In this document: piece after piece, positions 17,801 through 39,921 of the stretch
Position numbering within the stretch: the first letter of the stretch is position 1
Layout of the letters: every line of letters begins with the position of its first letter
Origin: Kushneria indalinina DSM 14324
Lineage (GTDB): Bacteria; Pseudomonadota; Gammaproteobacteria; Pseudomonadales; Halomonadaceae
NCBI RefSeq assembly: GCF_003385845.1
Contig: NZ_QRDJ01000008.1
Location: forward strand, 682,001 to 746,000
Length of the DNA: 64,000 nucleotides
Reading direction: 5' to 3'
Program-made: the position numbers and the translations under genes
The notes under the pieces: generated by a model
Told to the model about the DNA's origin: nothing
The model's input: the letters and a program-made list of their open reading frames with translations, nothing else
The model's database searches: none

Positions 17801-18123
17801 CTTCCAGGCTTTGAATTTCTCCCTGTATGTCGCCTTGCTGTATCGATCCTTTAGGGTTGTGCAGGACAGGGGCCTGACGTCTGCTTTTTTGTGGCTGAAC
17901 AGTGCTGACTATCCTGTGTTCGGCTATCATTGCTGCCTGGCAATACGCATCCCTGTCAGCGTCGATTGATGACGTTGAGACGAAGGATGCTTTCATTTCA
18001 ACGCCCCTTTCCGGGTGTTTCTCTATCGCCGCCTTTTTCTGTCCTGTCTTCACAGGCTGAGGTATCTCACCTTCTGGTGCGTGCATTTGCGGCGATATTT
18101 TCGATCGTCATGGAGTCTTGATT

Positions 18124-19074
18124 GTGCATGCTGCCCTCTCCATAAGAGGCCTGACCAAGGTTTACGACAATAGTTTTCACGCCCTCAAGGGCATCGATCT
18201 GGAAGTGCCCCAGGGTGATTTCTTCGCGCTGCTTGGGCCCAATGGGGCCGGCAAGTCCACAACGCTTGGTGTGGTCAGCTCGCTGGTGCGCAAGACGGCA
18301 GGCGAGGTCTCGATTTACGGCATTGATGTCGATCGGGATTTTGCTCGAGCGCGTTATTATCTCGGCGTCGTGCCCCAGGAGTTCAACTTCAACCAGTTTG
18401 AAAAGGTTGAAGATATCGTGCTGACCCAGGCGGGATACTACGGCATCCCGCGTCGTCAGGCCGAGGAGCGCGCCCACCAGCTGCTGGAGGATCTCGGTCT
18501 TTGGGACAAGCGTCACGACGCAGCGCGAATGCTTTCAGGCGGCATGAAGCGACGCCTGATGATTGCGCGTGCCCTGATTCATCGACCGAAACTGCTGATT
18601 CTCGATGAGCCCACCGCGGGCGTGGATATTGAGCTGCGCCGCAGCATGTGGGAGTACATGAAGCGCATCAATGAGCAGGAGGGCACCACCATTATCCTGA
18701 CCACGCACTATCTGGAAGAGGCGGAAAGTCTGTGTCGCAATATCGCCATCATCAATCATGGCGAAATCGTGCATAACACCAGCATGCGAGAGCTTCTGGG
18801 CCAGCTTAGCCGCGAGACCTTCGTGCTGGATCTGGCCTCGCCGGTGGCGCAGTGTCCGGTCATCGAGGGCTTCGATGTTGAACGCCTTGATGACAGCCAG
18901 CTGACACTGTCGGTCGACAAGGGGCAGCGAATCAACGACGCCTTTGCCCGGTTGAGCGAGCAAAATATCGAAGTCGTATCGATGCGTAATCGTGCCAATC
19001 GGCTCGAGGAGCTTTTTGTGCGCATGGTGGAAGGCAGTAATGGAACACAAGGTCAGCAGGGGGGCATTCGCTGA
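18124..19074 (+). CDS. yadG: ABC transporter ATP-binding protein YadG
   Basis: ATPase subunit of a two-gene ABC-2 type exporter. I choose GTG 18124 because GGAG lies eight bases upstream; the alternative TTG 18118 is too close. About 316 aa. Walker A GPNGAGKST, the Q-loop in PQEFNFNQFE, signature LSGGMKRRLMIARAL, Walker B LLILDEPTAGVD, and H-loop TTHYLEEAE are all intact and very close to E. coli YadG. A C-terminal domain (about 225-316) of the family follows, with MRNRANRLEELFV. The stop overlaps the yadH start (TGATG). The transported substrate of YadGH is not established. Confidence 0.95.
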   Translation: MHAALSIRGLTKVYDNSFHALKGIDLEVPQGDFFALLGPNGAGKSTTLGVVSSLVRKTAGEVSIYGIDVDRDFARARYYLGVVPQEFNFNQFEKVEDIVLTQAGYYGIPRRQAEERAHQLLEDLGLWDKRHDAARMLSGGMKRRLMIARALIHRPKLLILDEPTAGVDIELRRSMWEYMKRINEQEGTTIILTTHYLEEAESLCRNIAIINHGEIVHNTSMRELLGQLSRETFVLDLASPVAQCPVIEGFDVERLDDSQLTLSVDKGQRINDAFARLSEQNIEVVSMRNRANRLEELFVRMVEGSNGTQGQQGGIR

Positions 19075-19847
19075 TGAACGCTCGACAAAAGCTGGTGGCG
19101 CTATGGACCATCGTGCGCAGCGAGATTCGCCGCTTCATGCGTATCTGGCCCCAGACGCTGCTGCCGCCTTCCATCACGATGACGATGTATTTCATCATCT
19201 TCGGCAATCTGATCGGTTCACGTATCGGTCAGATGGATGGCGTGGATTACATGGACTATATCGTGCCCGGTCTGATCATGATGTCGGTCATCACCAACAG
19301 CTACTCCAACGTGGCGTCCTCGTTTTTTGGCAGCAAGTTTCAGCGCAGCGTCGAAGAGATGATCATCTCGCCGATGCCCAACTGGCTGGTGCTGTCGGGC
19401 TTCGTGATCGGCGGGGCCGCGCGCGGCCTGGCCGTGGGCATTATCGTGACCGCCGTCTCGCTCTTTTTTACCGATCTGCAGATTCAGCACCCGATTCTGA
19501 CCATCCTGGTCGTGATCATGACCGCAGTGCTTTTTTCCATCGGTGGCTTTATCAATGCGCTGCTGGGCAAGAAGTTTGACGACATCTCGATCGTGCCCAT
19601 TTTCGTGCTCACACCGCTGACCTATCTGGGCGGCGTATTCTACTCGATCCACACGCTGCCCGAATTCTGGCAGAACGTTTCCTTGATCAATCCGATCCTG
19701 TATATGGTCAACACGTTCCGATACGGTATTCTTGGCGTTTCCGATATCAATGTTGGCGCAGCTGTCGGAGCCATCGCGGTGTTTATCGTGATTTTCTTCT
19801 CCGCGGCCATATGGCTGCTGCGCCGTGGCAAGGGGCTGCGTAGCTGA
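19074..19847 (+). CDS. yadH: ABC-2 type permease YadH
   Basis: A 257-aa inner-membrane permease with six hydrophobic segments, starting after a short cytoplasmic N-terminus (SEIRRFMRIWPQTLLPPSIT). It carries the family's GLIMMSVITNSYSN and EEMIISPMP segments; the ABC-2 signature region LTPLTYLGGVFYSIHTLP is clear. Its start overlaps the yadG stop, so the ATPase and permease are made together. queF follows after two bases, making yadG-yadH-queF a tight operon that probably extends into the nitroreductase gene. Confidence 0.95.
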   Translation: MNARQKLVALWTIVRSEIRRFMRIWPQTLLPPSITMTMYFIIFGNLIGSRIGQMDGVDYMDYIVPGLIMMSVITNSYSNVASSFFGSKFQRSVEEMIISPMPNWLVLSGFVIGGAARGLAVGIIVTAVSLFFTDLQIQHPILTILVVIMTAVLFSIGGFINALLGKKFDDISIVPIFVLTPLTYLGGVFYSIHTLPEFWQNVSLINPILYMVNTFRYGILGVSDINVGAAVGAIAVFIVIFFSAAIWLLRRGKGLRS

Positions 19848-19849
19848 TC

Positions 19850-20674
19850 ATGAGCGACGACCTGAAGGATGCGCCACTGGGACACACCAGTGCCTACATC
19901 ACCGAGTACGACCCGTCACTGCTGTATCCCATCGCGCGCAGTGCCAATCGGGCGTCGCTGGATCTTGACGAGGACGATCTGCCCTTTGAGGGCGAGGATG
20001 AGTGGCAGGCCTTTGAGCTCTCCTGGCTGACGCCCACCGGCAAGCCCGTAGTGGCCATTGCACGTTTTCGGGTGCCTGCCGACTCGACCTGGCTGATCGA
20101 ATCCAAGTCCTGGAAGCTCTATCTCAACAGCTTCAACCAGACCCGGTTTGCCTCTTCCGTTGAGGTGCGCCGGGTGCTCAGGCAGGACCTGTCGCGGGTG
20201 GTGGATGCCGAAGTAGAGGTCACGCTGTTTGGGGTAGATGACATGGCACTGGCCCCTGGGCGGCTGCCCGGGCTCTGCCTGGATGATCTCGAGGTCGAGG
20301 TCGATACCTATCAGCCCGACCCCGAGCTGATCATCACCGACAACGAGATCGTCGAAGAGACCGTGCACTCGCACCTGCTCAAGTCCAACTGTCCGGTCAC
20401 CGGCCAGCCCGACTGGGGCAGCGTGCTGATCCGCTATCGAGGTCCGGCACTCGATCATCATGCGCTGCTGGCCTATATCATCTCCTTTCGTGAGCATCAG
20501 GAGTTTCATGAGCACTGCGTGGAGCGCATGTTCATGGACATTCTGCGTGAGGCCGAGCCGGATCAGCTGCTGGTCATGGCGCGCTATGTGCGCCGGGGCG
20601 GGCTTGATATCAGCCCCTGGCGGTCATTGCCCGGCGAGACACCGATCAAGACACTGCGTCTGATGCGTCAGTGA
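19850..20674 (+). CDS. queF: NADPH-dependent 7-cyano-7-deazaguanine reductase, bimodular
   Basis: Reduces preQ0 to preQ1 in queuosine biosynthesis, the only known biological nitrile reduction. The 274-aa length and two tandem T-fold halves mark the bimodular (E. coli-like) class. The N-terminal half holds the ESKSWKLYLNSFNQTRF motif (QueF signature E(S/L)K(S/A)hK(L/Y)YxxSFR-like). The C-terminal half has the catalytic cysteine C181 in SNCPVTGQPDWG. It starts two bases after yadH. I see no preQ1 riboswitch in front of it, consistent with an internal operon position. Confidence 0.97.
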   Translation: MSDDLKDAPLGHTSAYITEYDPSLLYPIARSANRASLDLDEDDLPFEGEDEWQAFELSWLTPTGKPVVAIARFRVPADSTWLIESKSWKLYLNSFNQTRFASSVEVRRVLRQDLSRVVDAEVEVTLFGVDDMALAPGRLPGLCLDDLEVEVDTYQPDPELIITDNEIVEETVHSHLLKSNCPVTGQPDWGSVLIRYRGPALDHHALLAYIISFREHQEFHEHCVERMFMDILREAEPDQLLVMARYVRRGGLDISPWRSLPGETPIKTLRLMRQ

Positions 20675-29847: not shown

Positions 29848-32800
29848 ATGGCCAGCGTGGTAGCCCCCGTCACGGACTCGGTGCACCGAGGCATGCTGTT
29901 TTTAATGGTATTGATGCTGTGGCTGATGACGCCTTGGGCGATGGCCGGTGAGCAGGACATACCGTCTCGCCAATCCATCGATGAGCAGATCGGTCAGATC
30001 GAAGGCAATGACCCTCAAAGCGCAGCCGATCAGCAGGCGCTGGAAACGCTGAACCAAACGCGTGAAGCCCTTGAGGCGCTGGAAAAGACGCAAAAGGAAC
30101 AGGCAGCGCTTGAAGATCGGGTCAATCAGGCCGATCGGCAGCGGCGTCAGTATCAGAATCAGCTGCAGGGACTGGAAAGCGATCGGGCGCTGGACAGCGA
30201 GGCACTGGGAAGAAGCTCGCTTGAGCAGATCGAGCAGCGACTGGGCAGCACCGTCGAGGATCTCCAGCGCCAGCAGGAACAGCTCAGTGAGGTCACGCGT
30301 GCTCTGATCAGCGCCCAGACCCTGCCGGAGCGGGTACAGGCCACCATCAGCGATGCGCGTCGCGAGCAGCAGCAGCTGGGCGACTCACTCGATTCAGGCG
30401 ATGGCAATGCGCCGAGCAGTGAGCGGCGACAGCTGGTCAATACCCGCATGGCGCTGCTGGAGGCCAGCATCGAGCTGGGCCAGCGTCAGCTGGCCAACAG
30501 CACGATATTGCGTGACGTTAACCAGGTGCATCGAGAGCTCCTGGCGCGCCAGATCGATATCAACCAGAACGCGCTGCTGGTGCTGCAGGAAGCGATCAAT
30601 CAAAAGCGTCGGGACGCCTCCGAGCAGGCCATCGCCGAGGCGGCCCACGTGGGGGAAAGTGATCGGGTCAGTAATCCGGTGGTGGACGAGGCGCGAGCGC
30701 AGAATCAGGCGCTGGCCCAGGAGCTTTTGCGCACCACGGATCGCGCCAATACGATGATTCGCGATGGCATCAATACCCGTGCCCGGCTCGAGCAGGTGCG
30801 TCAGGTGGAGCGCACGCTCAATGAACAGATCCAGGCCCTGCGGGGCAGCCTTTTGCTGTCACGCGTGCTGCGCCAGCAGCGTGGTTCGCTGCCGGATGTC
30901 GAGAATCAGCGCAGCCTGCAGGAAGAGATCGGGGATCTGCGCCTGCGTCAGTTTGATGTCGGCCAGTCGCGCCAGGCACTGACCAATCCGGCGCGCTATA
31001 TCGAGGAGCATTCTGACGTCGAAAAACCCCTGCCACCCCGGGCTCGCCAGGCACTGTTACAGACCCTGGAGATGCGTCGGGACCTGCTTGATCAGCTCGA
31101 CAGGGAATATGGCAACCTGCTGAGCCGGGCCATTGATGTGCAGCTCAATCAGCAGCAGCTTCTGGATATCAGTCGTTCGGTGCGCGACACCATCGAAGAG
31201 CAGCTGTTCTGGGTCGCCAACGGGCAGCCTCTGGGACTGTCGTGGCTTGGTGACCTGCCGGAACGCCTTGGGGAACAGCTGCTGGGCGGGGAGTGGCTAC
31301 AGACCCTGCGATCGCTATGGGCACTGCCCTCGCCACAAGCACTGCTGGCAGCCCCCTTATTGATTGTGGCCGGGCTGATGGCCTTTTTTCGCCGCCGCAT
31401 CAAGGCCTATCTATTGGAGCTGCACAATCAGATCGGCCGCCTCAAGCGGGATACGCAGCTTCATACGCCCCGGGCGATCGCGCTCAACCTCGTTCTTTCA
31501 TCAACCCTGCCTCTGATCCTGCTGGCGGCGGGTATTGCCCTGTGGCTGGGCGGGGAAGGGTTTGCCATCTCGCTGGGACGGGCGCTGCTGCAGCTGGCGC
31601 TCGCCCTGCAGGTCTTTGGTCTCATCCGACGGCTTCTGGTGCCTGACGGGGTGGCAATGCGCCATTTTCACTGGCCTGCGCCCTATGTCGATCGACTGCG
31701 GCGCAATATCTTCTGGCTGGGCTGCAGCGTGGCGCCGGTCGTGGTCGTGGCCAGTATCGCCGAACAGGCCGATAGCCGGCTGGCCGAGCAGCCATTGGCG
31801 CTTCTGGTCATGCTGGCGGGACTGATGGGCATGAGCGTTTTCATGCTGCGCCTGATTCTTGCCCACGTACCATGGATGGGCGTGCGTCTTTTCCGTCTGC
31901 TGCTGGGGATTACGCTTGCCATGGTGCCGCTGGCGCTGATCGGCATGATCCTCTTTGGCTACGAATACACGGCGCTGCGTCTGTGTGGTCGCTTTATTCT
32001 GACGCTCTATATTCTGGCGCTGTGGCTTCTGGTCGAGGCCAGTGTGGTGCGGGGGCTGGCGGTGGCCGCCCGGCGCCTGGCCTATCGTCGCGCCGTCACG
32101 CGCCGTCGCGCTCAGGGGCGTGACGGTGCTGCCGAAAGCGGTGTGGAGCTTGTCGAGGAGCCGCCGCTGGACATGGAGCAGGTCAATCAGCAGTCGCTGC
32201 GCCTGTCCAAGCTGATCCTGTTTTTGATCTTCATCAGCGTGCTGTATCTGGTCTGGGCCGACCTGCTGGGTGTGCTCTCCTATCTCGATAACGTCAGCAT
32301 CGGCCAGATCGAGGAGGGCGATGCGGCAGGTGGTGCTGTCAATGTGGTCACGCTGGCGGATGTGATGACCGCCCTGATTATCGTCGGGCTAATGGTGATC
32401 ATGGCGCGTAATCTGCCGGGGCTTCTGGAGGTCATGGTGCTCTCCCGGCTCAATCTCAAGCAGGGCAGTGCCTATGCCGTCACCTCACTGCTGTCCTATA
32501 CCATTGTCGGCGGCGGTATCGTGGCCGCTCTGGGCACGCTGGGCGTGACCTGGGACAAGCTGCAGTGGCTGGTGGCGGCGCTTTCGGTGGGTCTGGGTTT
32601 CGGTCTGCAGGAAATCTTTGCCAACTTCATCTCGGGTCTGATCATCTTGTTCGAGCGGCCGATCCGGATTGGCGACACCATTACGCTGGGCAACCTGCAT
32701 GGCACGGTCAGCCGGATTCGTATCCGGGCCACCACGGTGACGGATTTTGATCGCAAGGAGATCATTATCCCCAACAAGACCTTCGTCACCGATCAGCTGA

Positions 32801-33252
32801 TCAACTGGTCACTGACCGACAACATCACGCGCGTGGTGCTGACCTTCGGGGTGGCCCATGGCACCGATCTCGACCTTGCCCACCGCATCCTGCGGCGCAT
32901 TGCCGATGAGCATCCCAAGGTGCTGGTCGATCCCGAGCCGCAGGTGTTCTGCATGGCCTACAGTCAGGACGCCTTCAACTTCGAGCTGCGGGTGTTCGTC
33001 AACGAGCTGATCGACCGGCTTGTGGTGACCGATGAGATCAACCGCCGGGTCGATGCCGAGTTCCGGTCCAACGGCCTGCGCGTGGCGTTCCAGCAGATGG
33101 ATGTCTGGCTGCACAACGAAGAGGGCGAGAAGCGTCTGGTGCAGCAGAAGGCGACGCGGGACGGTCGCCCGTCACCGCATGCCAGCAGCGCTCACGATGG
33201 CGATCCGGGCGACGCTTCGCCGGGCGATGCCACGCCCGGCGAGCTGCCCTGA
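29848..33252 (+). CDS. MscK/KefA-like large mechanosensitive channel
   Basis: A 1134-aa protein: a signal-like hydrophobic N-terminus (MLFLMVLMLWLMTPWAMA), a long periplasmic coiled coil (about residues 40-440), then a series of membrane helices from about residue 495, and a C-terminal MscS-type pore and beta domain (about 900-1090). The pore-proximal helix region reads LSVGLGFGLQEIFANFISGL and ERPIRIGDTITLG, the MscS hallmarks. It ends in a hydrophilic, Asp/Pro-rich tail. Such channels release solutes on hypo-osmotic shock, fitting a salt-adapted organism. The start is uncertain: ATG 29848 is too close to GAGG, and GTG 29857 would have a better spacing. Confidence 0.92.
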   Translation: MASVVAPVTDSVHRGMLFLMVLMLWLMTPWAMAGEQDIPSRQSIDEQIGQIEGNDPQSAADQQALETLNQTREALEALEKTQKEQAALEDRVNQADRQRRQYQNQLQGLESDRALDSEALGRSSLEQIEQRLGSTVEDLQRQQEQLSEVTRALISAQTLPERVQATISDARREQQQLGDSLDSGDGNAPSSERRQLVNTRMALLEASIELGQRQLANSTILRDVNQVHRELLARQIDINQNALLVLQEAINQKRRDASEQAIAEAAHVGESDRVSNPVVDEARAQNQALAQELLRTTDRANTMIRDGINTRARLEQVRQVERTLNEQIQALRGSLLLSRVLRQQRGSLPDVENQRSLQEEIGDLRLRQFDVGQSRQALTNPARYIEEHSDVEKPLPPRARQALLQTLEMRRDLLDQLDREYGNLLSRAIDVQLNQQQLLDISRSVRDTIEEQLFWVANGQPLGLSWLGDLPERLGEQLLGGEWLQTLRSLWALPSPQALLAAPLLIVAGLMAFFRRRIKAYLLELHNQIGRLKRDTQLHTPRAIALNLVLSSTLPLILLAAGIALWLGGEGFAISLGRALLQLALALQVFGLIRRLLVPDGVAMRHFHWPAPYVDRLRRNIFWLGCSVAPVVVVASIAEQADSRLAEQPLALLVMLAGLMGMSVFMLRLILAHVPWMGVRLFRLLLGITLAMVPLALIGMILFGYEYTALRLCGRFILTLYILALWLLVEASVVRGLAVAARRLAYRRAVTRRRAQGRDGAAESGVELVEEPPLDMEQVNQQSLRLSKLILFLIFISVLYLVWADLLGVLSYLDNVSIGQIEEGDAAGGAVNVVTLADVMTALIIVGLMVIMARNLPGLLEVMVLSRLNLKQGSAYAVTSLLSYTIVGGGIVAALGTLGVTWDKLQWLVAALSVGLGFGLQEIFANFISGLIILFERPIRIGDTITLGNLHGTVSRIRIRATTVTDFDRKEIIIPNKTFVTDQLINWSLTDNITRVVLTFGVAHGTDLDLAHRILRRIADEHPKVLVDPEPQVFCMAYSQDAFNFELRVFVNELIDRLVVTDEINRRVDAEFRSNGLRVAFQQMDVWLHNEEGEKRLVQQKATRDGRPSPHASSAHDGDPGDASPGDATPGELP

Positions 33253-33258
33253 TTGACC

Positions 33259-34029
33259 TCAGCAAGAAGCGCGTGTGGCGTGCATCAAAAACTCCCGATT
33301 ACCGTCACCGCCGGTGATCGGGCTGTCGCCCCAGTAGTGCAGGCTGAACCCGTTCTGCGCGCAGCATGTGCGCAGGCGCGTCTCGACCTGATCAAAGTGG
33401 CGCGCATCGCGCACGATGCCGCCGCTGCCAATCTGCTCGGGGGAAAGCTCGAACTGTGGCTTGACCAGGCTGAGCAGGTGCGCGCCTTTGGATAACAGTC
33501 GGGCCAGCTCGGGCAGGATCAGCGTCTGGGAGATGAACGATACGTCCATGACGGCGCCAGCCAGCCCCTCGGGCGCCAGCGCCAGAATTCGGTCATCCGG
33601 CAGGTTGCGGGCGTTGATGCCCTCCAGACAGTGCACCCGCTCATCCTCGCGCAGCAGCGGATCCAGCTGATCATGGCCGACCTCGATGCCGATCACGCGC
33701 GCGGCGCCATGCTGGAGCAGGCAGTCGGTAAATCCGCCCGTCGACTGGCCTACATCCAGCAGGGTCAGCCCCTGAGGCGATAGGCTGGTGGCGTTGAGAA
33801 GCGCCTCGAGCTTGAGCCCTGCGCGTGAGACGTAGCGCTCCTCGGGATCCTCCACCACATGAAAGCGACTCTCTTCCGGCAGTTTCTCGCTGGGCCGGGT
33901 CAGGGTGCGCGGCTGGCTATCGCCGATCAACTGTACCCGGCCGTGGCGAATCAGACGCTGGGCGCGCGTGCGTGAACGGACCAGCGCCTGGGCGACCAGC
34001 AGCTGATCGACACGTAACATCCTGCTCAT
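33259..34029 (-). CDS. tlyA: TlyA-family S4/SAM-dependent RNA methyltransferase (putative hemolysin family)
   Basis: A 256-aa protein with an N-terminal S4 RNA-binding domain (about residues 3-62, RVDQLLVAQALVRSRTRAQR) and a C-terminal FtsJ-like methyltransferase. The latter carries YVSRAGLKLEALL, the SAM loop LLDVGQSTGGFTDCLLQ, and the KPQFEL motif. TlyA of Mycobacterium 2'-O-methylates C1409 of 16S and C1920 of 23S rRNA; the short gammaproteobacterial members are less studied, so target is inferred. ATG 34029 has AGGA seven bases upstream. It converges with the mscK-like gene six bases away. Confidence 0.92.
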   Translation of the reverse strand: MSRMLRVDQLLVAQALVRSRTRAQRLIRHGRVQLIGDSQPRTLTRPSEKLPEESRFHVVEDPEERYVSRAGLKLEALLNATSLSPQGLTLLDVGQSTGGFTDCLLQHGAARVIGIEVGHDQLDPLLREDERVHCLEGINARNLPDDRILALAPEGLAGAVMDVSFISQTLILPELARLLSKGAHLLSLVKPQFELSPEQIGSGGIVRDARHFDQVETRLRTCCAQNGFSLHYWGDSPITGGDGNREFLMHATRASC

Positions 34030-34090
34030 GTTTCTGTCCTGCAATACAAGAGGTGGTGGCCGTGCCGAGCGGCACGGCCCTTCAGACAGC

Positions 34091-35197
34091 CTATTCTACC
34101 TCGCCTTCAACGGCCTGCGGGACGACAGCGTCACCAAGGGTGAAGATCGTCTGCCAGCGATGAAGCAGCGCTTCGCGCTTGAGCGGGTCGATCAGGGCCA
34201 GTAGGCCCGGCGTCAGTTGAATGGGCTCCAGCGATTCGTTGGTCTTCGCGGGGTCCTTGTGGGCCAGCAGCGGGCTGCCCAATGGCGTCCGGGAGGTCAT
34301 GATCTGCTGGCCCTGTCTTGACGTAATAAAGCTCAGAAAGCGTCGGGCCGTTTCGGGGTGCGGGGCCGTGGTTGGAATCAGGGCCAGTCTCTGCAGCGCC
34401 AGTGCGTAATCGGTGGGCACCTGCAGCACCAGTTCAGAATGTTCGCGTACGACGCGACGGGCGTAGGAGCCGATCAGGTTGTAGCCGATCAGATAGCGCC
34501 CCTCGATCAGCCCTTCGAGCATGGCTGTCGTTGAATCAAGCAGCTGCGTATCGGCTGCCCCCATGGCCTCGAACAGCCCCCAGGCCTCCTGTGAGCGCGC
34601 CATGTCCTGAGCCACCGCCATGAAGCCGGTCGGGCTTCGCGCCGGATCGTAGGTGGCCACGCGCCCTGCCAACGCCGCGCTTTCCTGATTCAAAAGCGCC
34701 AGCAGGCCTGCGTGGTCCACGGGCGGCGGTGCAATATCGGCAAGCTCGCGGCGATAGACCATCACCAGTGGTTCATGGGTCAGCCCGATCAGCTCATCAC
34801 GCCAGCGAGCGCTCTCCGGCCAGGCAGGGTTGATGACGCCGCGGCCCAGCGGCTGGGCGTTACCGCCGTTGGCCAGTTGATACTGCTGCGCCATGGCCGA
34901 GGACATCAAAAGATCGACGTCGGCCGGTATCCCGGCAGACGGCTGGCGAGCGCCGCGCGAGGCGTCGCGATAGTTCAGCGTGATCTGCGGATAGCGCTGA
35001 TGGAAGGCCTCGAGCACCGGATGCAGGACATCGGCTTCCACCACACCCTGAATGTTGAGGCGCTCGCTGCCGCTGCCGGGGAAGTGACGCTGGCCCGGCG
35101 ATGAGACGGGAGGTTCCTCGGCGCCGGCCGTCGTCGCGAGGGCCAGCACTATCCCGATGACCACGATGCGCTGCAGGGTCCTGAAAAGCCTCGGCAT
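34091..35197 (-). CDS. Periplasmic solute-binding protein in a two-component operon
   Basis: A 368-aa periplasmic binding protein (extracellular solute-binding family, iron/thiamine-like fold) with a signal peptide (about residues 1-26, VVIGIVLALATTAGAEE). Features: LNIQGVVEADVLHPVLEAFHQ, PADVDLLMSSAMAQQY, and LVMVYRRELAD, the last typical of the hinge of this class. No lipobox is evident. The ATG overlaps the sensor-kinase stop by one base (TGATG), so it is the third gene of a regulator-kinase-binding protein operon. No permease or ATPase is adjacent. It probably acts as a ligand sensor that contacts the kinase, as has been described for some periplasmic sensing proteins, rather than as a transporter component; this is inference. 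Confidence 0.85.
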   Translation of the reverse strand: MPRLFRTLQRIVVIGIVLALATTAGAEEPPVSSPGQRHFPGSGSERLNIQGVVEADVLHPVLEAFHQRYPQITLNYRDASRGARQPSAGIPADVDLLMSSAMAQQYQLANGGNAQPLGRGVINPAWPESARWRDELIGLTHEPLVMVYRRELADIAPPPVDHAGLLALLNQESAALAGRVATYDPARSPTGFMAVAQDMARSQEAWGLFEAMGAADTQLLDSTTAMLEGLIEGRYLIGYNLIGSYARRVVREHSELVLQVPTDYALALQRLALIPTTAPHPETARRFLSFITSRQGQQIMTSRTPLGSPLLAHKDPAKTNESLEPIQLTPGLLALIDPLKREALLHRWQTIFTLGDAVVPQAVEGEVE

Positions 35198-36564
35198 CAG
35201 GAGGTTTCTCCGGGCAGATGCAGACCGATCATGAAGCCACCTTCCGGCCGGCGATGCATGATCATGTGGCCGCCGTGGGCTTGCGCCACACCATCGGCAA
35301 TAGCAAGCCCCAGGCCGCTACCGCCGCCCTGTGCCTGATCGCTGTGAAAGGGGCGCAGGGCATCGGCCTGAGCCGAGTCGCTGATACCCGGGCCATCATC
35401 CTCGACATACAGCACTCGGCCGGCGGCATCGATGCCCACGGTGACACGGCTGCGGGCGTGGCGCAGGGCGTTGTCGATCAGATTGCTCAGGGCCTCTTCA
35501 ACCTGCCAGCGGTCGGCATCGACTGACAGGGGCGGGCAGTGTTCGGCCAGTCCCAGATCGATACCGCGGCTGTCAGCGGTGGGCAGAAAGCGGATCAGCG
35601 ATTCGCGGGCCAGCGTGTCCAGCGCCACCGGTGCCCGCGCAAGGGGTGCCTGCGGGGAGTAAAGGCGTGTCAGCGATAAAAGCTGCTCGGCCAGACGGGT
35701 GGCCCGACGCGTGCCGGTCTGGATCTCGTGCAGGGCCTGCTGCCAGCGATTCGTGTCATCACTTCTAAGGGCCAGCTCGGCGCTGGCCGCGATACCGGCC
35801 AGCGGCGTGCGCAGCTGATGAGAGGCGTCGCCAATGAAGCGCTGTTCGTGAACGCGTACCTGACGCTGGCGGGCCAGCAGGGCGTTGAGGGCGGCGAGAA
35901 GTTCTTCCAGTTCGCGCGGTACGGTCACATCAATCGGGGAGAGATCGTGTGCCGTGCGGGCCTTGAGCCGTGTACGCAGGTCTTTCAGCGGACGCAGGGC
36001 CAGGCGCAGGGTCATCACCAGCCCTGCCAGGGCCAGCACCACGATGCCGGCCAGACGCAGGCTGCTGTCGCGAAAAAGCTGCCAGGTCATGGCGCGTCGC
36101 GCCTCCAGCGTATGGGCCACCAGCAGGGTATAGGGTTCGCGGTGGTGCCAGCCGGTCAGGCGGGCGCCCAGTGCGCCGACGCGCAGCGATCGGCCGTTGA
36201 GAGTCGCCGGGCCGGCCTGAAAGGCACCCGGTGCGGGCAAGGGTGCCATCAGTGCTGCGAGATCGGCATTGCCACTGACGGGGTTGCCCTCGTGATCGAC
36301 GAGCGCATAAAAGACGCGTTCGTCGCCGTGTGGTGCCAGCATGTTCAACGCCGAGGCGGGCACATCAAACCAGAGGCGATCATCGCGCCAGCCCACGTGG
36401 TCGCTCATGACCTGGGCCGCCGACGCCAGCAGACGATCATGGGCGCGGTCGGCGCTGCGCTGTGCGCTGTACCAGGACTGAAGCAGCAGCAGGATGCAGG
36501 TGAGCAGCAACAGCAGGGCGAGCCCGCCCAAAAGGCGCCGATGAAGGCTGGGTGCGGACGTCAT
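35197..36564 (-). CDS. Sensor histidine kinase (TctE-like)
   Basis: A 455-aa inner-membrane kinase: transmembrane helix 1 (about residues 11-30), a short periplasmic sensor region, helix 2 (about 171-190), then the HisKA domain with H249 in FIGDASHQLRTPLAG and an HATPase domain carrying NLIDNALRHA (N box), EDDGPGISD (G1) and GSGLGLAIADGV (G2). The periplasmic region (about 31-170) is Ala-rich. Layout and neighbours match the TctDE family, which senses tricarboxylates in other bacteria; the actual signal here is unknown. It lies three bases after the response regulator. Confidence 0.94.
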   Translation of the reverse strand: MTSAPSLHRRLLGGLALLLLLTCILLLLQSWYSAQRSADRAHDRLLASAAQVMSDHVGWRDDRLWFDVPASALNMLAPHGDERVFYALVDHEGNPVSGNADLAALMAPLPAPGAFQAGPATLNGRSLRVGALGARLTGWHHREPYTLLVAHTLEARRAMTWQLFRDSSLRLAGIVVLALAGLVMTLRLALRPLKDLRTRLKARTAHDLSPIDVTVPRELEELLAALNALLARQRQVRVHEQRFIGDASHQLRTPLAGIAASAELALRSDDTNRWQQALHEIQTGTRRATRLAEQLLSLTRLYSPQAPLARAPVALDTLARESLIRFLPTADSRGIDLGLAEHCPPLSVDADRWQVEEALSNLIDNALRHARSRVTVGIDAAGRVLYVEDDGPGISDSAQADALRPFHSDQAQGGGSGLGLAIADGVAQAHGGHMIMHRRPEGGFMIGLHLPGETS

Positions 36565-36567
36565 GGC

Positions 36568-37236
36568 TCAGCGCAGTTCCAGACGATAGCCCATGCCACG
36601 CACGGTACGAATGTGAAGGTCGCTGCCTTCAAGACGCCGGCGCAGGCGGTGTACATAAACCTCCAAGGCGTTGTCACGCAGGGTGTCGTCACCACCAAAG
36701 GCCTCGGACATCAGATCGGCGCGGCTGATGATCTGCTCGGCGTGGCGCAGCAGACAGGCCAGCAGGCGCTGCTCGCGGGTGGGAAGTTCCAGTGCCGTGC
36801 GGTTCAGCTCAAGGCGCTGGGTGGGCACATGCAGCACCAGCTGTCCCAGCGCCAGTGTGTCAGGGGCAGCCGGTCGTGCGCGGCGAAGAAGCGCACGTAC
36901 CCGGGCCTCGAATTCGCTGAGCGAGAAGGGCTTGGTCAGATAATCATCGGCGCCCAGATCCAGCCCCGCCACACGATCCTCCACCGAGGCGCGCGCCGTC
37001 AGAATCAGCACGGGGGTGCGGGTATCGTGCCGGCGCAGCGTGGTCAGCACATCAAGGCCGCTGCGCCAGGGCAGGTTCAGATCCAGAATCACCAGATCGA
37101 GCTTTCGGGGTGTGGCGAGGTGATCGCAGGCGTGATCACCGCGTGTGATGACCTCCAGCTGATCGTCATGGTCACGCAGCAGGGTTTCAAGAGTCTGTGC
37201 CAGCAGCACGTCATCCTCGATGAGCAGTAGCGCCAT
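36568..37236 (-). CDS. OmpR/TctD-type response regulator
   Basis: A 222-aa regulator. I start it at ATG 37236 (GGAG five bases upstream), which gives MALLLIEDDVLLAQTLETLL. The receiver has the acidic pair E7/D8, phosphoacceptor D52 (in VILDLNLPW), T80 region ILTARA and K102 (in DDYLTKPF), all conserved. The C-terminal winged helix carries LTPxE-like LPTREQRLLACLLRH and VHRLRRRLEG. It is first in the operon regulator-kinase-binding protein and presumably autoregulates it. Likely targets would be the genes for the sensed nutrient, which are not in this window. Confidence 0.94.
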   Translation of the reverse strand: MALLLIEDDVLLAQTLETLLRDHDDQLEVITRGDHACDHLATPRKLDLVILDLNLPWRSGLDVLTTLRRHDTRTPVLILTARASVEDRVAGLDLGADDYLTKPFSLSEFEARVRALLRRARPAAPDTLALGQLVLHVPTQRLELNRTALELPTREQRLLACLLRHAEQIISRADLMSEAFGGDDTLRDNALEVYVHRLRRRLEGSDLHIRTVRGMGYRLELR

Positions 37237-37420
37237 GAAGGCTCCGCAGCAACAAAACGGAAAGGGCGTCAGTCTACCCTGGACGACCCACCCATCACGA
37301 CTGTCCTGATCATGTAGCGGCATCGCTTGCGATGAGGGAAGTCATGCTGCTACCATGCGCGCTCGGTTGATCGGGGGCTGGCCAGCGGCCGGCAGATAAC
37401 ATGCCCTGACATCCGGTGAT

Positions 37421-37536
37421 GGTGACCCTCGATGGTCCTCTCGCAACGCGATATCGCGAACCCCGCCAGGCCCGGAAGGGAGCAACGGTAGTGATGGATG
37501 CGTGTGCCGGGATGTGGCTGTTGAGGGTCGCCACCC
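37421..37536 (+). ncRNA. ffs: 4.5S RNA of the signal recognition particle
   Basis: The conserved internal segments GCCAGGCCCGGAAGGGAGCA and GCGTGTGCCGGGATGTGGCTG identify the Ffh-binding domain IV. The 5' segment GGTGACCCTC pairs with 3' GAGGGTCGCCACC to close the long hairpin. The size, about 115 nt, is normal. Bacterial SRP RNA escorts membrane-protein ribosomes to the Sec machinery. Its place just upstream of dnaX is common in gammaproteobacteria such as Pseudomonas. Confidence 0.95.
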
Positions 37537-37782: not shown

Positions 37783-39921
37783 ATGAGCTATCAGGTACTG
37801 GCCCGCAAATGGCGGCCGCGCACATTTCACGAGCTGATAGGGCAGGAGCATGTCAGCCGTGCGCTGGTCAACGCGCTTGACCAGGGGCGATTGCATCATG
37901 CCTATCTGTTTACCGGCACGCGCGGGGTGGGCAAGACCACGCTGGCCCGCATTCTGGCCAAATGCCTGAACTGTGAAACCGGCGTGACGTCACTGCCGTG
38001 CGGCCAGTGCCGGACCTGTCAGGACATCGATCAGGGACGTTTTGTGGATCTGATCGAGGTGGATGCCGCCTCACGTACCCGCGTTGAAGATACCCGCGAA
38101 CTGCTCGATAACGTCCAGTATGCGCCCACTCAGGGGCGCTACAAGGTGTACCTCATTGACGAGGTGCACATGCTGTCGACGCACAGCTTCAATGCGCTGT
38201 TGAAAACGCTGGAAGAGCCGCCTCCGCACGTACGTTTTCTGCTGGCGACCACCGACCCGCAAAAGCTGCCCATCACGGTGCTGTCGCGCTGTCTGCAGTT
38301 TGCCCTCAAGCGCATGACCCCTGAGCGCATCGTCGATCATCTCGACCACGTGCTCACCCAGGAGCAGACCGCCTTTGATGCTGCGGCCCTCTGGTTGCTG
38401 GGACGCGCGGCTGATGGCTCCATGCGCGATGCCATGTCGCTGACCGATCAGGCCATTGCCTTTGGCCACGGTGAGGTGCGCGAAAACGATGTCATCGCGA
38501 TGCTCGGCACCCTCGATCATCGCCAGATTCTGGCGCTGGCCGAGTCGCTGGCAGGCGGTGACGCCGCCGATGTGCTGGCGCGCGTGGCCCATCTGGCCGA
38601 GCAGGGCCCGGACTTTGCCGGGGTGCTGGATGCCCTGTGCGGTGTCTTTCACCGTCTGGCGATTGCACAGATGGTGCCGGCCGCGCTGGACAACGCCCAG
38701 GGCGATCGCGAGGCGCTGGTCGCGCTTGCCGCCCATTTCACGCCCGAGGATGTGCAGCTCTACTATCAGATTGCGCTCAACGGCCGGGGCGACATGGACA
38801 ACGCACCGGAGCAGCGAACGGCGCTGGAGATGACGCTGCTGCGCATGCTGGCCTTCCGACCCCAGGGGGCGCCTGCCCCGGAACACAAGCCGCTGCCGAT
38901 CCAGGGCGCTGCGTCGTCGACGCCACCGACCAGTCACGAAGAAAGCGCATCTTCGCAGGCGGCGCCTGCCGATGATGCTGCCGTGTCGGATAGCGCGCAG
39001 GCGCAGGCCCCGGAACGGAGCGAGCCGGCCGAGGCAGAGCCATCGGCCTCGGCGGCACCTGCCGAACCGTCAGACCCGGTTGAACCTCCGGTTGCCCCTG
39101 CACCGGCGCCGCCCTGGAATGATGATGATGCCGCTGTCTCGCTGGCAGATGCTGCCGAGAGTGCTGCCTATGGTGAAGCGTTGCAGGCAGAAGCAGGTGA
39201 AACTGCCCCTGCCGATACCGTTCAGCCAACGGTCGTCCCGGACGAGCCGGAGGTGGCGGATACGCGTCAGGCGCTCTTTGGTGCCGCGCCTGCCGCCGAT
39301 GATGAGCAGGACGATGCGCTTGATGAGTACATGAACGAAGCGGTTGGCGATAATGCCGCCGGGCAGGCCAGTGCGCTGGAGGCGATGGTTGATGGCCTTT
39401 CGGGCGAGTCATCGCCGGAGACGCTGGAGGCACCAGAAATGCCGGCGCCGGATAATGAGACGGCATCCGAGGGTGCTCGCGCTCTGCCGGTCGAGGCGGA
39501 TCACACGCCGATCGACAACGCTCGCTGGCTCGAACTCTTTCCCGGGCTGGGGCTTTCCGGCATGACGGGCAACCTGGTGGCCAACTGCGTTGTCCGCCAT
39601 GATGACGGGGAACAGCTTGGCATGTGGCTGCATCATTCCCAGAGTGCCATGAATGCAGAAGTGCATCGCGAGCGTCTTGAAAAGGCACTGGCGGCGCGTG
39701 GCCTGTCACGCCGGGTGTCCATCGAGGTAGGGGAGATCGATGAACAGATCGAAACCCCGGCACGCCGCCGTGCCCGCCTCGAACAGGCGCGATTGCAGCG
39801 CGCCATTGAAGCCTTGCGTGATGACCCGCATATTCAGTCCCTGCAGGACGTTTTCGGTGCCCGGTTGCTGGAGCGCAGCGTCACCTCGTTCGAGCAGGAT
39901 AATGCTGGCGGCGGCAACTGA
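37783..39921 (+). CDS. dnaX: DNA polymerase III subunit gamma/tau
   Basis: Clamp-loader ATPase of the replisome. The 712-aa product starts [18 protein letters not shown]. It has Walker [13 protein letters not shown] (about 45-56), zinc cysteines C64/C73/C76/C79 at the positions of the E. coli protein, Walker [11 protein letters not shown], and the SRC motif in TVLSRCLQF. After about residue 365 comes a long acidic, Ala/Pro/Glu-rich linker to about 575, longer than in E. coli. A C-terminal polymerase-binding domain (about 580-712) follows. I could not find an A-AAA-AAG type slippery site, so a short gamma form by frameshift is not evident. It starts the dnaX-ybaB-recR operon. Confidence 0.96.

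Follow-up and report, generated by a model that had tools for sequence, protein, structure and literature searches.

The window analysed here is a stretch of 64,000 nucleotides from Kushneria indalinina DSM 14324 (Halomonadaceae; RefSeq assembly GCF_003385845.1, contig NZ_QRDJ01000008.1, positions 682,001 to 746,000 of the forward strand). The study concerns an operon in this window in which the genes of a two-component system are followed by the gene of a periplasmic solute-binding protein (SBP). The three genes, here called the triad, are the following:

36568..37236, minus strand: response regulator of the OmpR/PhoB type, TctD/PmrA-like, 222 amino acids (Pfam, NCBIfam)
35197..36564, minus strand: sensor histidine kinase of the TctE/QseC type with a 2CSK_N periplasmic sensor domain, 455 amino acids (Pfam, motifs)
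34091..35197, minus strand: periplasmic SBP of the MctA/3c9h (metal-citrate) type, 368 amino acids (Pfam, phmmer, structure comparison)

The tight packing noted in a preliminary description was confirmed at 37236-34091 on the minus strand. Regulator and kinase genes are separated by three bases (TGA-GCC-ATG), and kinase and SBP genes overlap by one base (TGATG). The reading frame of the regulator is open up to 37323, and the start at 37236 (MALLLIEDD) was preferred because it agrees with the relatives. Response_reg and Trans_reg_C were found over the Pfam cut-off in the regulator; its top NCBIfam match was TctD (NF012023) with 184.7 bits, below the cut-off of 337, and the TctD equivalog model was thus not passed. 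In the kinase, 2CSK_N (89.4 bits, cut-off 23.2), HisKA and HATPase_c were over the Pfam cut-off, HAMP fell just short (22.8, cut-off 25), and the motifs SHQLRTPL, NLIDNA, DDGPGI and GSGLGLAI were intact. The proposed likeness to TctDE systems therefore holds by domain make-up, with 2CSK_N in the kinase and TctD as the best NCBIfam match of the regulator. The SBP, with an N-terminus that resembles a signal peptide by eye, matched SBP_bac_11 and SBP_bac_8 over the cut-off and gave no match to the TctC family PF03401 in the Pfam scan, in agreement with its earlier placement outside the TctC group. Its nearest named relatives are from Kushneria species (76% for K. pakistanensis).

Relatives of the operon were examined in the best 80 of 461 confirmed loci (numbered with the prefix L) from a scan of genome contigs; all 80 are from named Halomonadaceae, each with about 8 kb of context. 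For a second set, the neighbourhoods of 40 of the 80 strong SBP matches other than the window's own were retrieved; its genomes partly overlap those of the first set. Regulator, kinase and SBP genes lie on one strand with the usual spacing in 80 of 80 loci of the first set, and the triad is present in 40 of 40 loci of the second. Because the same three genes occur together throughout both sets, the layout of the triad goes beyond chance. A search of 81 genomes with the SBP gave 81 strong matches (E < 1e-30, own protein included), with a match of any strength in 61 genomes. The SBP was kept in all six same-genus genomes, and its own genome holds a single match at E <= 0.001. One clear break of the triad was seen among the 40 loci. 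At L058:9534-13546 (genome G029), kinase and SBP are separated by some 4 kb of inserted DNA carrying genes of the S-type pyocin DNase and immunity types (Pyocin_S, Col-Pyo_DNase twice, Colicin_Pyocin).

BLAST searches of the context with three different ATPase queries found no ATP-binding cassette (ABC) ATPase in any of the 80 loci. A broad ABC signature pattern matched in L152, L159 and L050; these were frames of 394-401 amino acids unmatched by BLAST. The conservation of the triad and the fact that no ABC partner is linked to it in the family support the earlier suggestion of a three-part sensor with a dedicated SBP.

A different transporter is commonly linked to the triad. At least one gene of a tripartite tricarboxylate transporter (TTT) lies beside it, in divergent orientation, in 67 of the 80 loci. 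The tctA gene itself was found in 65 loci, the other two TTT-bearing loci being cut by a contig end. In three loci (L118, L126, L133) the contig ends before any TTT gene could show, and in ten no TTT gene was found within 8 kb. The ten transporter-less loci are from Kushneria (six loci, L086-L091), Phytohalomonas (L092) and Larsenimonas (L111, L114, L122). In the second set a TTT gene was present in 33 of 40 loci; in L069 and L070 it is placed downstream on the same strand and is not divergent.

The window belongs to the transporter-less group, and the triad is surrounded by the following features:

29848..33252, plus strand: MscK-like mechanosensitive channel gene, right syntenic marker (named by eye)
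33259..34044, minus strand: tlyA-like gene, right syntenic marker (named by eye)
37237..37429, no strand assigned: intergenic stretch between regulator and signal recognition particle (SRP) RNA, probable triad promoter and putative scar of tctCBA (or abrB), which lies between dnaX and regulator in syntenic relatives; lacks the motif of the relatives
37430..37526, plus strand: SRP RNA (Bacteria_small_SRP), between regulator and dnaX (RNA family match)
37783..39921, plus strand: dnaX-like gene, left syntenic marker (named by eye)

No permease or ATPase adjoins the triad in the window, which is flanked by the TlyA- and MscK-like genes on one side and the SRP RNA and DnaX-like gene on the other. 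The preliminary description was correct in this respect for the neighbouring genes. A block between the SRP RNA and the regulator is kept in Kushneria and resembles, by eye, the promoter of the SRP RNA. Elsewhere in the window (18118-20674), an ABC-2 type exporter ATPase and membrane genes adjoin queF.

In Salinicola avicenniae (L112) the gene order is dnaX - tctABC - regulator - kinase - SBP - tlyA - mscK, which is the layout of the window with the transporter still in place. In K. sinocarnis (L091), tctCBA is gone and an AbrB-family gene (PF05145) lies between dnaX and the regulator. The same was observed in all five loci examined from a further genus (L067, L068, L192-L194), with no tctCBA and an AbrB-family gene (PF05145) between dnaX and the regulator. 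The leftover AbrB is 55-60% identical to the AbrB encoded directly behind tctA in L106 and L164. The survival of abrB in this position, together with synteny and the kinase tree, indicates that tctCBA was most likely lost from the locus in the Kushneria lineage and was not originally absent. The earlier statement that the system has no transporter is thus true of the window locus; the condition is probably derived, and most relatives carry TTT genes beside the triad. In the kinase tree (40 rows, midpoint-rooted, with long outgroup branches), the 11 transporter-less rows grouped in a single clade (100/99), and a separate clade held two rows from the genus of L067, L068 and L192-L194. Since the transporter-less rows fall in two clades, two separate transporter losses are likely. 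The AbrB-family membrane protein gene (L091:4528-5622 and L067:11400-12515) may itself be a target of the regulator in those genomes. In L139/L048 and L156 the TTT genes that adjoin the triad share only 36-49% identity with their usual counterparts; here the transporter may have been swapped and the sensor kept.

Following a suggestion of the preliminary description, the rest of the genome was also searched for the transporter. It holds seven TctA genes, whose best identities to two TctA types of the relatives (queries from L034 and L063) are 34-59%. In comparison, the triad-linked tctA genes of the relatives were 82-100% identical to one or other query, except in L139 (45%) and L156 (49%), where tctA looks replaced. 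None of the seven was a close match, and relocation of the cognate transporter was rejected on these values, because of which it looks gone, and not moved, in the window's genome, the one transporter-less genome checked. The genome holds a second 2CSK_N kinase, encoded with a TctD-like regulator and tctCBA near 40 kb of contig G000:C4 (L080, G000:C4:34000-52000). No SBP of the triad type was seen beside the L080 pair, and the TctDE-like and tctCBA genes are followed by LacI-type and TRAP transporter genes.

The SBP was compared with solved structures. The best phmmer match was 3c9h (1.6e-53), followed by the 7f6 series (1.5e-32 to 4.3e-31). A model built from 46 sequences had a mean predicted local distance difference test (pLDDT) score of 86.4. 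In VIA-align the model matched 3c9h with a Z of 37.3 (root mean square deviation 2.8, 315 residues aligned), ten MctA metal-citrate entries with Z of 34.0-35.0, and ferric-binding proteins next with Z of 25.9 or lower. Foldseek gave the same order of groups. MctA (PDB 7f6e and kin, 30-32% identity) is the nearest solved structure with a named ligand; 3c9h scores higher, and its title names no ligand. The "iron/thiamine-like" assignment of the SBP made earlier therefore describes the fold well and does not extend beyond it, the nearest structures being 3c9h and the metal-citrate protein MctA.

Facts on MctA were taken from the PDB titles, in which six residues of the citrate site are probed. 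By the phmmer alignment, S26, D28, S79, S164, T199 and Y221 of MctA correspond to V52, E54, S100, S188, T223 and Y245 of the SBP. Four of the six residues are identical (S79, S164, T199 and Y221), D28 is conservatively replaced by E, and S26 is changed to V. The titles describe the S79A, S164A, T199A, Y221F and Y221A mutants as apo, while S26A retains Mg-citrate and D28A retains citrate. The positions whose MctA mutants are apo are exactly the four conserved in the SBP. Among the 46 proteins of the alignment, S188, T223 and Y245 never vary and S100 is found in 43; position 54 is D in 38 and E in six, and A (37) or V (7) occupies position 52. At the probed sites the residues of 3c9h agree with those of MctA except S for T. 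As MctA and 3c9h are the nearest kin and most of the probed residues are kept, a citrate-like ligand is a fair guess from sequence.

A scan of 274 gammaproteobacterial genomes, in which up to seven initial candidates per genome were scored, gave an SBP match at E <= 1e-30 in at least seven genomes, two of them in the genus of the window. Kinase and regulator genes lie beside the SBP gene in all five matches outside the genus (L187-L191). TTT genes are divergent from the regulator in L187, L190 and L191, and in L189 genes for a porin and a citMHS citrate symporter (624.1 bits, cut-off 259.7) are divergent from the triad. In L188, on a contig that stops behind the SBP, the 9 kb examined showed neither TTT nor citMHS genes. 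The SBP gene is on the opposite strand in L187 and L188, and in L188 it adjoins the regulator.

Selection was estimated as the ratio of non-synonymous to synonymous substitution rates (dN/dS) by the Nei-Gojobori method. The close comparison was made with K. pakistanensis, K. phyllosphaerae, an uncultured Kushneria and K. avicenniae, with dS of 0.5-1.0 in the four pairs. The ratios were 0.20-0.29 for the SBP, 0.16-0.18 for the kinase and 0.13-0.19 for the regulator. In five pairs of transporter-bearing relatives they were 0.11-0.20, 0.06-0.21 and 0.07-0.17, respectively. The operon is alive and under purifying selection, with the SBP slightly more relaxed.

The present target of the regulator was sought through motifs. 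A motif, GTTCTRCCTTACRGAAYTGTAAG, scored high before tctC in 54 of 54 first-clade loci, which were also its training set. An IclR gene was present in 48 of these 54 loci and missing in six, all from Salinicola. Because these six motif-bearing loci have no IclR gene, the motif may belong to the response regulator. None of the 13 second-clade loci has it, and it does not precede the regulator in any of the ten transporter-less loci. The IclR-type gene lies between tctC and the response regulator in 48 of the 80 loci (for example L116:5094-5864), giving two regulators per locus; no match to it was found in the ten transporter-less loci. A second-clade motif gave eight sites in the window's genome (2-3 mismatches) against one in a reversed control. 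These sites were taken as chance and rejected as targets, since 8.6 are expected for the pattern at even base composition. A citMHS gene was likewise rejected as a new target; one gene, near 285 kb of G000:C3, passes the model (283 bits, cut-off 259.7), its neighbours look unrelated, and no tie to the triad regulator was found.

On balance, the triad is probably a three-component sensor of citrate or tricarboxylates, similar to HptASR or CuaDSR, which has persisted beyond its transporter and remains subject to purifying selection. We infer the ligand, the contact between SBP and kinase, the phosphorelay and the present target of the triad as follows. The ligand would be citrate or a closely related tricarboxylate, perhaps complexed with Mg. 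In the periplasm the SBP would close on it and dock on the 2CSK_N domain of the kinase, which would phosphorylate the regulator. In the ancestor the regulator may have activated the divergently placed tctCBA uptake genes. The Kushneria lineage would have lost tctCBA and kept the sensor, so that it might now control itself and/or an unlinked target. More tentatively, and at less than even confidence, the metal-citrate SBP and the TctE-type kinase could form a dedicated citrate receptor that, in Kushneria and two further genera, has been rewired to a new target not linked to it. Citrate, perhaps Mg-citrate, would then act there as a pure signal.

Several observations weigh against a citrate sensor that has outlived its transporter. 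Two of the six MctA site residues differ in the SBP (V52 and E54). AtuA-family genes lie near the TTT genes in L191 (403-2489, plus a DUF4387 gene) and L187 (6029-7420), and with such neighbours the ligand may vary. In L190 an ABC importer is found about 2 kb from the triad SBP. Flanking genes gave dN/dS values of 0.08-0.15 against the four close Kushneria, below those of the SBP. Against the more distant K. aurantia, the ratios rose to 0.28 for the SBP, 0.37 for the kinase and 0.25 for the regulator, with 0.21-0.27 for the flanking genes. A shortened GTTCTRCCTTACRGAAYTGTAAG gave 11 sites in the window's genome (2-3 mismatches each) and 12 in the reversed control. Finally, neighbouring sbp and kinase genes do not always share a function; in Pseudomonas aeruginosa the kinases AgtS and AruS showed no interaction with the SBPs encoded close to them (PMC11113362).

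Of the alternatives, the most probable is a three-component sensor for a carboxylate other than citrate, for example an aromatic or hydroxy acid. The changes at the positions of MctA S26 and D28 would fit such a ligand, as would a triad-linked TctC of a relative, which matches several TctC structures including a terephthalate binder. This was nevertheless considered rather unlikely; the nearest structural kin with a named ligand is the metal-citrate protein MctA, and the outside relative L189 adjoins citMHS.

Less likely still is a plain TctDE pair, whose kinase would sense citrate-like acids directly via 2CSK_N and whose co-transcribed SBP would only buffer or trap the ligand without contact. 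The TctDE-like pair with tctCBA at L080 in the same genome, beside which no such SBP was seen, speaks for direct sensing, as do the findings on AgtS and AruS. Against it, the SBP is beside the kinase in 80 of 80 loci and in 39 of 40 second-set loci (in L058 it follows after the 4-kb insert), stays with the triad in L187 and L188 despite its changed strand, and survives the loss of the transporter.

A role of the SBP in capturing substrate for an ABC importer encoded elsewhere, with its place behind the kinase due to mere co-regulation, appears improbable. Its fold group consists mostly of SBPs of ABC importers, and MctA is itself titled as part of an ABC transporter. Near the triad, in contrast, no ABC ATPase was found among the neighbours in the window or within about 8 kb in the 80 loci, a search that did not extend to unlinked ABC genes or the unlinked permeases of the window's genome. 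The linked transporters are TTT or, once, CitMHS. The only ABC importer seen near a triad, that of L190, is of the branched-chain or urea type and has its own SBP of another family. A decaying remnant left after the loss of tctCBA is very improbable. In its favour, this lineage has neither transporter genes nor the IclR gene nor the motif at the locus, and the SBP evolves faster than its neighbours. Against it, none of the three frames is broken, the kinase motifs are intact, the four close species give dN/dS of 0.13-0.29, the SBP is kept in 6/6 same-genus genomes, and loci of three genera retain the full triad without an adjoining transporter.

The result describes a family of loci, conserved in the Halomonadaceae, whose tricarboxylate-type operon combines an uptake SBP (TctC) with a second SBP of a different family beside the kinase, and offers a concrete guess for the ligand of the latter. 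Three genera have probably lost the transporter from the locus and retained the sensor, which offers a natural experiment on the fate of a sensor after transporter loss. No publication was found whose title or abstract opening names this gene combination. A similar layout is known from the Salmonella PgtABC-type phosphoglycerate system with its PgtC sensor protein.

Published systems are compared here as described in the cited papers. About ten SBP-activated sensor kinases had been characterised as of 2022 (PMC9602780). In Bordetella, BctC with citrate acts on BctE, and contact between SBP and kinase was shown (PMC5812351, PMC9602780). A P. aeruginosa mutant without TctD-TctE did not grow on citric acid alone (PMC6403454). 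BctC-BctDE and the TctDE system of Salmonella resemble the triad in that a two-component pair controls a TTT transporter with citrate as the signal. They differ in that signalling there falls to the transporter's own TctC-type SBP; in the window the kinase is paired with an additional SBP from another family, and the locus has no tctCBA. In Staphylococcus aureus, HptA binds glucose-6-phosphate and relays the signal to HptS, and hptASR lies beside uhpT (PMC8774646). The likeness is one of layout, with SBP, kinase and regulator beside a transporter gene; the ligand is glucose-6-phosphate, and the transporter is another one and still present. In CuaDSR of Ruminiclostridium cellulolyticum, CuaD is a second, sensing SBP separate from the uptake SBP (PMC10384115). 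Here too the likeness is of layout, a sensing SBP adjoining kinase and regulator, whereas the ligand is cellobiose, the transporter is of the ABC type and the host belongs to the Clostridium group. With no linked ABC partner in the 80 loci, the SBP gene of the triad is fixed beside those of the kinase and regulator, as in systems of the HptASR and CuaDSR type.

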